Positions 18,561 through 52,596 of a stretch of DNA of 64,000 bases are shown here, in pieces (the first letter of the stretch is position 1; each line of letters begins with the position of its first letter). This DNA is from Lampris incognitus (Eukaryota > Chordata > Actinopteri > Lampriformes > Lampridae), in NCBI RefSeq assembly GCF_029633865.1, contig NC_079212.1, positions 100,053,433 through 100,117,432 on the forward strand, read 5' to 3'. Position numbers and translations under genes: made by a program. Under the pieces are notes generated by a model, which had not been told where the DNA came from, did no database searches, and worked only from the letters and a program-made list of their open reading frames with translations.

Positions 18561-18720
18561 GGGCGGCACAGTGGTTAGCGCTGTTGCCTCACAGCACGAA
18601 GGTCCTGGGTTCGAACCCCGGGGTTGTTCAACTTTGGGGGGTCATCTCAGGTTGTCCTCTGTGTGGTGTTTGCATGTTCTCCCCGTGTCTGTGTGGGTTT
18701 TCTCTGTGGGCTCTGGTTTC
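18561..18720 (+). mobile_element. SINE-A copy 4, head and body, 3' truncated
   Basis: Starts GGGCGGCACAGTGGTTAGCG (with a short deletion in the head), B box GGGTTCGAACCC, body GTTTGCATGTTCTCCCCGTG. It stops at GGCTCTGGTTTC, where it switches abruptly to the hammerhead-bearing palindrome. Confidence 0.8.
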
Positions 18721-18800
18721 AAGCCTGTTTCACGCTATAAGCATTCATCAGCTGTCAGCTGATGATTGCTTATGGCATGAAACAGGCTTGTACTGTCTCA
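18721..18800 (+). ncRNA. Degenerate hammerhead-like palindrome (Penelope terminal repeat fragment)
   Basis: Two arms face each other: 18723-18756 and its near-complement 18757-18794, with about 3 mismatches. The plus-strand arm reads CAG|CTGATGA, a weak stem II (TGC/GCA, loop TTATG), GAAA, stem III CA-GGCT-TG, then TA|CTG. The minus-strand arm reads CTGATGA, a better stem II (ATGC/GCGT, loop TTATA), GAAA and CAGGCTT, and then breaks at the SINE junction. These are the same conserved blocks as in the terminal repeats at 51003-52582. The outer part of stem I is not conserved here, so activity is doubtful. Confidence 0.6.
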
Positions 18801-18914
18801 TAAAAAATTTACTTGACTCACTGGATTATTTTGTTCCTTATTTGTTGAGCACTTTCCCTACCATTGAGTGTTTCCTTTAACAAAGTTATATATTTATATA
18901 CATTTCTAATAAAA

Positions 18915-50330: not shown

Positions 50331-51002
50331 GTCAAAAAACACAAATAGAATGTATTGAAAGTAGACAGAAAGTCAAGTTAGCATTTGTGTGCCATTTGTT
50401 TCATGCTCCTCTGATTTGTGTGACGTGCATTCCTTCCACTCTTGACTAGTTGGTGCAGAAACGTGATGCCGACACAGACTCTCTTTATAAGACACGGCAA
50501 ACACCACATCCTTATGCTCCGACACACTCAGCTCCACTTGGAATACATTAACACAAAGGTTAAATGAGGGCAACATGTACAAGGGCCCAGAAGTGGAGTA
50601 TTATAAATGCAGGCTGTTGTGGAAACTTGCCTCAAAATGCTTGCTTTTTTTTTTTTAGCCCTTGACAGCCACCTTTACCTGACACGATAATTGGGGAGTT
50701 CCCCTACAAAAAGTGCTCAAGGAAAAACAAAATATTTGCCATATTGCTCACGTTTTGGCTGAAGTTTTTAAGTGCTTTGTTGTTCTTGTGTGTGCACATG
50801 GCAGTCACCTTGGTTAAATTTCAAATTTGAAAGATGATTAAATACCTGTCTCCTTGAAAATGGCAAACCAGTCAGTGTCTGCTGTTATCTTTCACTATAG
50901 CTTTCAGCATCTTTCACTGCAAATATATATATATAGCATTTTTATTTCCGTAAATTAAGGCTATAGATAAAAGTGGTCAACAAATGAAGAGCGGAATATT
51001 AC
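50331..51002. other. Unassigned DNA
   Basis: No gene or repeat recognised before the Penelope-like fragment. Confidence 0.45.
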
Positions 51003-51024
51003 GATAGATGTAGGGAAAAAAAAC

Positions 51025-51090
51025 TTTAATGCATTTCAGTACAAGCTTGTTTCGTGCGTCACGCACTCATCAGCTGCCAGTGTGATTAAA
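51025..51090 (-). ncRNA. Hammerhead ribozyme, type I, in Penelope-like 3' terminal repeat
   Basis: Read on the minus strand: outer stem I UUUAAU / AUUAAA (6 bp), internal loop CACACUGG / AAAUGC, inner stem I CAG / CUG, core CUGAUGA, stem II GUGCG-UGA-CGCAC (5 perfect pairs), core GAAA, and stem III of A-U, C-G and A-U closed by AGCU, with cleavage expected after GUA. All invariant core bases are present. A very short stem III plus an internal loop in stem I match what is known of hammerheads in Penelope-like elements. It is on the element's sense strand. Confidence 0.82.
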
Positions 51091-51444
51091 CAACAAAGAA
51101 AAACACACAGTCAATAATTATTACGTTGCCCCATGTCACGCCCCTAATTTCGGTGGACAGCAACCAATGAGAGGGTAGAAAACATTTGAAATATTACAAC
51201 CAATAGGGTAGGTAGTTATAATGCACAGCAGCCAATGGTGGGATAGAAAACATTACAACCAGTGCAGTAGGGGTTGGGACTTGTTGGGATTTAAAGGGCC
51301 GGGCACTGTTGAAATAGCCTGCATTTAAAATATAAATGGGGTCATTTATGAATATCATATAGTGGAGTGGTGTTGGGGCACAGTTGGAAGGGCAGACAGT
51401 TAAAATATAAAAATGTAACATCTAATAAATGTCACGTGTATCAT

Positions 51445-52471
51445 CTAATGGGGGGGTGGGGGCAGTAAAGACATTGTTTTACTTGTAATTACAAAGCAGA
51501 TATTTTTTCTGTGTCTACAGCTGGTGGCCAATTCATTTCTACTGTTCAAGGTGGACATATCAGGCTTGCAAATAATGAAATATTTCTCTGCCAAGCATAT
51601 GTCACATCTTTTGCTGTTAATTGAATATGCATTGATCTTGAATATGCATTGACCACTGGCTACCCATCTCCCACCGGATCAATTACAAACTCCTGATTCT
51701 CACTTATAAAGCCCTTCACAAACTGGCTCCCCCATACCTCACCGATCTCCAATCCCCTTACCAACCCTCTCGGTTCCTCAGATCCACATCAGCCTCCCTT
51801 TTCTGTACCCCCAGGTCCAACCTCCGCGGCTTTGGTGACTGACCCTTCTCCAGACTCTTCACTTCCCCAAATCAATAGAGACTCAAAATCCCTCCCACTC
51901 TTCCAGTCCCGTCTCAAGACACACCTTTTCTCCATTGCCTTCTCGTGCCCCCCCGTCCGCTCATACACCCCTGGTCTGGGGCAGGCTGGGGACTGAGCGC
52001 TTGACCTGCACCTGTGATTTATGTGATTTATGATGTTCGTTTTTCTTTCCCTTTATATCTGTCCAAGTCTGAGAGTACTGCTGGCGTCGTCTGTGGCTGC
52101 CGCTTCTCCCTCTCGTAGCCCCCCTTCCCATCCACCTGTGTTATGTTCATCTCTCGTCTTGTTTCACTCCATTTATTCTAAAGCGACTTTGAGTACTAGA
52201 AAAGCGCTATATAAGATTGATTTATTATTATTATTATTATCTTCATGAGGATTTTCCATGAAATAGAGTAATTAATATTCTCATCTACCACTGACCAAAT
52301 GTGGTGGCTTAAGGGCGTTGCATTTCTTGCATGCTAATTTCTGAAGCTACTCTTATGGGCATTAAACCTAATTTTAAAAGCGCTTTCTGTTAATCCCACA
52401 TTGCAGTTGTCTTCTCTTGTCACTGATGCCTGGTAGATGACTCCCTCTGTCTGGCATTTTCCTTCAAAAGG
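51445..52471 (-). pseudogene. Penelope-like GIY-YIG endonuclease domain, interrupted
   Basis: Piece 1 (52471-52241) is one frame of 77 codons: PFEGKCQTEGVIYQASVT, DNCNVGLTESAFKIRFNAHK, SSFRN, stop, HARNATPLSHHIWSVVDENI and NYSISWKILMK. It shows the GVIYQ and VGLT halves of the GIY-YIG fold, the downstream Arg and His, and one TAG. The second motif has Asn where Tyr is usual. A LINE tail (51651-52240) then intervenes. Piece 2 (about 51625-51445) resumes with [38 protein letters not shown], and ends at TAG 51447-51445; its Cys/His pattern is the Penelope C-terminal zinc-like motif. Around ten residues are lost at the junction. Inactive. Confidence 0.85.
51651..52240 (+). mobile_element. L2/Rex1-type LINE 3' end inserted in the endonuclease
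   Basis: Plus strand encodes [33 protein letters not shown] and, after decay, the C-terminal part, followed by an untranslated tail ending AAAGCGACTTTGAGTACTAG, AAAAGCGCTATATAAG and (ATT)n. It is 5'-truncated at about 590 bp. A target duplication is not clear; TTGAATATGCATTGA repeated just upstream (51621-51635, 51638-51652) may be a local duplication. Confidence 0.8.
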
Positions 52472-52497
52472 GTGTTTACTGTGTTTTTCTTTTTTTG

Positions 52498-52562
52498 TTT
52501 AATCACATTGGCAGCTGATGAGTGTGCGACACATGAAACAAGCTTGTACTGAAACGCATTAA
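52498..52562 (+). ncRNA. Hammerhead ribozyme, type I, in inverted 5' terminal repeat
   Basis: On the plus strand: outer stem I UUAAU / AUUAA, loop CACAUUGG / AAACGC, inner stem CAG / CUG, core CUGAUGA, stem II GUGUG-CGA-CACAU, core GAAA, stem III as in the other copy, then GUA before the expected cleavage. Compared with the 51025 copy, stem II pair 4 changes from C-G to U-A on both sides (a compensatory change), and pair 1 from G-C to G-U. It is antisense to the element because the repeat is inverted. Confidence 0.8.
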
Positions 52563-52596
52563 TTTTTTTTCCTACATCTATCTTTATATAAATATA

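Follow-up and report, generated by a model that had tools for sequence, protein, structure and literature searches.

Hammerhead motifs at both outward ends of a head-to-head Penelope-like insertion in Lampris incognitus, and the unequal tails of such pairs across the genome

A 5'-truncated Penelope-like insertion in the genome of Lampris incognitus carries a hammerhead motif in each of its two outward-facing ends, and we consider it probable that this dead copy arose from two reverse transcriptions that met head to head. The insertion lies at positions 50936..52589 of the window, by which we mean the whole 64,000-nucleotide stretch of contig NC_079212.1 that was analysed. What is added here to the description of such elements is a count, made across the genome, showing that the two ends of these insertions are usually unequal, one arm bearing a tail and the other none.

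Anatomy of the insertion and its hammerheads

The outer limits of the insertion, drawn from the sequence and the arm tables, are approximate, with TATATA on both sides and both 3' ends pointing outward. Along the long arm, on the minus strand, a coding remnant (52240..52480) is followed by the 3' untranslated region of the element (51113..51652, recognised from the matching stretch in other copies), a terminal repeat with its hammerhead (51003..51112) and a tail of about 67 nt (50936..51002), which lies beyond the proximal end point and stops at TATATA. The first 47 nt of this tail are 87% like other tails; the initial annotation had drawn the left side too short, since the arm runs on as tail to about 50936. 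The short arm, on the plus strand, consists of a tailless terminal repeat only (52478..52589). The arms match as inverted repeats over 86 nt (87%) and 27 nt (89%). Taken alone, the segment at 51653..52239 has matches of 85-91% in many places, and its site is uninterrupted in other element copies; it is therefore a later insertion, of a repeat that we take to be L2-like and to lie on the plus strand.

The coding remnant is a broken C-terminal piece that looks GIY-YIG-like by eye in translation, and longer related pieces occur in other copies. Pfam gave no match to the remnant, and no GIY-YIG domain was found by Pfam either in it or in the coding pieces of its relatives (E up to 0.1 or 10). A YRDD-bearing piece of one relative matches RVT_1 weakly, with an E of 0.0063 and a score of 16.7 bits where the cut-off is 29.6; reverse transcriptase is absent from the window copy. 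The insertion has terminal repeats of the kind expected of a Penelope-like element, where an inverted arrangement is allowed and a tail is optional. This architecture, together with the coding remnants in relatives, bears out the initial identification of a truncated, head-inverted Penelope-like element, and on its sequence the copy is a dead, 5'-truncated remnant with a later repeat insertion. No clear target-site duplication could be read in the flanks, both of which are TATATA-like, so that one would be indistinguishable from repeat. A repeat beginning CACTCACCGGCCACTTTATTAGG, presumably Tc1-like, abuts Penelope arms at a TATATA site both here, from 52597 onward, and at locus L065.

Minimal hammerheads of Penelope-like elements were reportedly described by Cervera and De la Pena in 2014. 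The two of the main insertion are minimal type I hammerheads at 51020..51094 on the minus strand (left arm) and 52494..52568 on the plus strand (right arm). CTGATGA, GAAA and GTA are present in each, and stems I, II and III follow one another in type I order, which gives the full type I core of CUGANGA, GAAA and UH before the cut with three ordered stems; cleavage is predicted immediately 3' of A51040 on the minus strand and of A52548 on the plus strand. They score 104.7 and 96.1 bits respectively with R1, a model of 53 aligned copies that itself includes both of these arms as well as two relatives (in L014 and L022) of a further hammerhead at 18739-18810. A strict, rule-based motif scan, independent of R1, found 3 complete motifs on the two strands of the 64-kb window, compared with 0 in 100 windows simulated under a Markov-1 model; the third match is part of another head-to-head pair, at 18720-18889. 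Model and scan agree with the original description of two hammerheads with every invariant base present and the stems in order.

Searching the window at Rfam gathering scores returned 0 matches. Below threshold, Hammerhead_HH9 matched the minus copy at 15.5 bits (cut-off 52, E 2.3), and the plus copy had no Rfam match even there. Sub-threshold scores of the curated hammerhead models for both copies had been named at the outset as grounds for giving up the hammerheads, and this is literally the result. In our judgement the curated Rfam models do not cover the minimal Penelope variant. Because the gathering score was not reached, the arms are not placed in any curated Rfam family and are hammerheads by anatomy; the case cautions that minimal Penelope variants can escape curated hammerhead models. 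The known minimal Penelope hammerheads are, as here, short type I variants in terminal repeats (PMC6155905, PMC7229834), whereas the head-to-head form goes unmentioned in the available parts of those two sources.

A second pair and the distribution of tails

The second pair in the window is a separate insertion, of family B, and its cores at 18720-18810 went unmentioned in the initial annotation. Its plus arm has a hammerhead at 18739..18810 (45.6 bits and a motif-scan match), with U-U at the first stem II pair, followed by a tail at 18830..18889 that matches the family B tail probe at 98%. The minus arm is partial (18720..18751, 22.5 bits over 18718-18751); its core stops 2 nt before the cut site, within what is presumably a SINE-like stretch, and the two cores meet at the palindrome CAGCTG. 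The exact family B core (e.g. 18756-18792) is mismatched, U-U, at the first pair of stem II, whereas the minus arm (18751-18720) has A-U at this position. One class of axolotl hammerheads resembles family B in having U-U mispaired at the base of helix II (PMC7229834, PMC6155905).

Apart from the window's own, the best 40 of 1143 family B candidates scored are 95-97% identical, and the arms meet within 30 bases in all six fetched pair loci of this family. One family B insertion occurs twice, about 37 kb apart and with the same upstream flank (L088/L089, C18:26360153-26360406 and C18:26397684-26397937), through either segmental duplication or an assembly artefact. At L113 (C12:18356166-18356386) a family B core runs into a terminus and tail of the family A/C type, which is what a template switch by the copying enzyme from one family to another would produce.

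The head-to-head layout is common in the 1.48 Gb host genome that was searched: a partner repeat in this orientation lies within the fetched 1.5 kb at at least 10 of 28 distinct loci (30 fetched). In the endonuclease-bearing Penelope elements of rotifers (Arkhipova et al. 2013, PMC3846280), as far as the accessible text goes, inverted pLTRs are likewise typical and bound 5'-truncated copies, head-to-head copies outnumber other arrangements, one of the inverted pLTRs may carry a short tail, and targets are AT-rich. The head-inverted form, which had been singled out as deserving attention, is thus a known product of Penelope insertion.

The arms end in one of two ways. They stop near CTATCTT (family A) or GGATTAT (family B), usually with an AT or CA repeat after this, or they continue for a conserved 45-60 nt. 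Of 27 pairs classed by eye from the arm tables, among the matches listed, 22 have one tailed and one tailless arm (13.6 expected, p 0.001), and the proportion is 17 of 21 (10.4 expected, p 0.003) once six pairs found by a tailed query are set aside. Family A (with C) alone gives 12 discordant pairs out of 14 (p 0.012) and family B alone 10 out of 13, which is not significant (p 0.098). Nine further pairs, picked by core sequence regardless of tail, include eight that are discordant (p 0.053 alone). Taken together, exactly one arm is tailed in 30 of 36 pairs (18.2 expected, p 8e-5), or in 25 of 30 (p 3e-4) without the six tailed-query pairs. The six concordant exceptions comprise four tailless-tailless and two tailed-tailed pairs.

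These counts treat the arm at C24:23050313 as tailless though about 11 nt of tail remain, and leave out three ambiguous family A pairs (L051, L045, L041), with which 23 of 30 pairs are discordant (p 0.003). Four loci whose partner is a tail fragment only (L025, L034, L037, L047) were excluded; all would be discordant, but only tailed partners are detectable in this way. Also outside the tail count are L067, one of ten added pairs, and the second pair of the window, whose minus arm ends inside the hammerhead. In ten family A pairs compared by eye for arm length, the tailless arm is the longer in four and the tailed arm in two, the remaining four being of similar length. A limited literature search, including the accessible part of PMC3846280, found no count of tail against arm.

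Covariation, decay and the palindromic stem III

The two arms of the main insertion differ at stem II pair 4 (C-G in one, U-A in the other) and pair 1 (G-C and G-U). These changes, which were initially offered as covariation, are real; as evidence they are weak, because all four differing stem II and loop II bases in the arm-to-arm comparison are CpG transitions. Between the aligned arms as a whole, 5 of 7 substitutions are at CpG sites, and methylated genomes yield CpG transitions without selection. Arm-to-arm covariation was therefore rejected as proof of a ribozyme, and the case is a caution that CpG decay can pass for covariation when repeat copies are compared.

Over the 53 copies, pair 4 is CG in 30, UG in 14, UA in 5 and other in 4, and pair 5 is GC in 33, GU in 6, AU in 5, UG in 2 and other in 7. 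Stem cells are paired in 90.9% of cases, compared with at most 39.5% in a slid control; outer stem I (helix 1), which had been said to pair in both arms, mostly does so, with 84.7% of cells paired. Cells changed on both sides number 18 against 9.4 after column shuffling, and a three-column slid control likewise gives 18; the covariation score is 0.120, against no more than 0.058 when slid and 0.103 when shuffled. Constraint within family A was at one stage suggested by non-CpG rates of 0.015-0.030 in the core and stems against 0.067-0.095 around them, from 41 of the 53 rows, most of which had been gathered by hammerhead similarity. It was dropped after a fairer sample of 16 arms, all drawn from a genome-wide similarity list of element copies, in which non-CpG divergence is 0.081 for the 40-nt hammerhead and 0.099 for the untranslated region, 29 of 96 windows of the latter being as low. 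Copies within a family thus decay nearly neutrally, and within the family the situation comes close to what the initial proposal had named as counting against the ribozymes, namely copies whose core and stem II are broken no less often than neutral sites.

Comparison between families gives the hammerheads better support than arm covariation does, through the core and stem III. The window's family A and family B cores share 33 of 40 bases, and the roughly 35 nt adjoining the core cannot be aligned (226 of 500 shuffles as good). The tails of the two families are alike, with 10 of 500 shuffles as good for the window's family A tail and 0 of 500 for a less decayed one. The core AA and the final base ahead of the cut are separated by a self-complementary 10 nt, ACAAGCUUGU in most copies and ACAGGCUUGU or ACAGGCCUGU in others, so that the palindromic centre varies between AGCU, GGCU and GGCC. 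Stem III would have three pairs and a four-base loop within one molecule, and ten pairs between two molecules. The inner pair, which is A-U in 47, G-U in 3 and G-C in 3 of the 53 copies, can form only between two hammerheads, and for this reason the pattern fits dimeric action; the variation rests on few families and is as a dimeric hammerhead would allow.

Newt and axolotl hammerheads are reported to act as dimers (PMC6155905, PMC7229834). According to the available parts of the same sources, the hammerheads of amphibian satellites and animal retrozymes share the weak stem III with a palindromic tetraloop and are more active as dimers, but they belong to small tandem non-coding repeats for which neither tail nor coding remnant is mentioned.

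For the window copy itself a role of the ribozyme is doubtful, because the minimum free energy fold of the whole insertion brings its two arms together: in the plus strand the left arm is paired to 98 of the 103 right-arm bases, and in the minus strand the right arm to 98 of the 110 left-arm bases, energies of folds this long being a guide only. The prediction for read-through RNA is accordingly that the other arm holds the sense ribozyme in a duplex, and in cells the ribozyme would probably be a passenger, doing nothing.

Formation of the two arms

The reading that we prefer, and think likely, is that the insertion was made by two reverse transcriptions. The protein of the element would have cleaved a TATATA site on both strands, and reverse transcription of element RNA would have been primed from each free DNA end. 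One reaction would have started at a distal start site, giving the left arm its tail, and the other at a proximal site, giving the tailless right arm; both would have stopped early, and the cDNA ends would have been joined head to head. We infer this order of events from the products. In a live element the ribozyme would probably cut the element RNA, with the palindromic stem III linking one hammerhead to another.

The unequal ends of 30 of 36 pairs fit a reverse transcription on each strand, the two beginning at different start sites. The Poseidon element PAc of the anole (Frangieh et al. 2024, PMC11167929) provides a parallel in its described features: it has a hammerhead near the unit junction, its protein cuts and extends both target strands with a preference for AT-rich DNA, and it has two adjacent internal start sites, the interval between which is the optional tail. 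It differs in having an active protein and tandem copies. Ribozyme mutants still inserted in that study. The tail asymmetry is left unexplained by that study, in the portion available, since the start sites used in vitro were alike on both strands. A coordinated double event in vivo, in which a dimeric complex would use one start site per strand and one-tailed ends would be the rule, is a tentative extension that we do not favour outright.

The strongest alternative is snap-back self-priming, in which a cDNA or antisense transcript would fold at a palindrome such as CAGCTG and the second arm would be copied from the first. Self-priming was proposed for the rotifer Penelope elements and, unlike here, favoured there (PMC3846280; the word hammerhead is absent from the accessible text). 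Several junctions in L. incognitus are near-perfect palindromes, including that of the window's second pair. In L126 (C6:55313042-55313324) the same rare AACAGGC duplication is present in both arms, as expected of a copied arm; these arms came either from one kind of RNA or one from the other. A copied arm should, however, share its end with its template, whereas 30 of 36 pairs end unequally and in two fixed kinds. In L118, L120, L122 and L123 a short CTTGTACTG-like duplication beside stem III, possibly due to slippage at the hammerhead structure, is carried by a single arm of the pair. In most comparisons the two arms of a pair are no more alike than random arms, which is a weak test, the family being star-like; arm similarity was discarded for this reason as a means of discriminating between the two. 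Overall we regard snap-back copying as unlikely.

Two independent insertions in opposite orientation into one AT-rich spot are less likely still, and we give them little credence. Nested or neighbouring copies are common here and the flanks are AT or CA repeats, but the arms of the six fetched family B pairs, 30 bases apart or less, mostly have no repeat DNA between them, and random events would not pair a tailed with a tailless end. That ribozyme-cleaved RNA served as template, some arms ending at the hammerhead cut, is scarcely credible: the window's arm at 18720 and an unrelated one (L046, C11:18245109) do stop at one and the same position, 2 nt short of the cut, but in family B there is no peak at the cut. 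Scored by eye, breaks in family B number 5 to 7 of 9 matches at core position 36, 1 of 7 at 39, 3 or 4 of 39 at 42, up to 3 of 14 at 44 and 1 of 14 at 47, counts that are only roughly comparable, one-base mismatch patterns having been used at position 42 and two-base patterns elsewhere. Breaks near the cut are not more frequent than six bases upstream, and the idea, promising in two copies, was given up without a genome-wide peak.

If the one-tail pattern holds in a complete census, genome sequence by itself would help to tell dual initiation from snap-back copying in the insertion of Penelope-like elements, and the published anole in vitro system could be used to test it.
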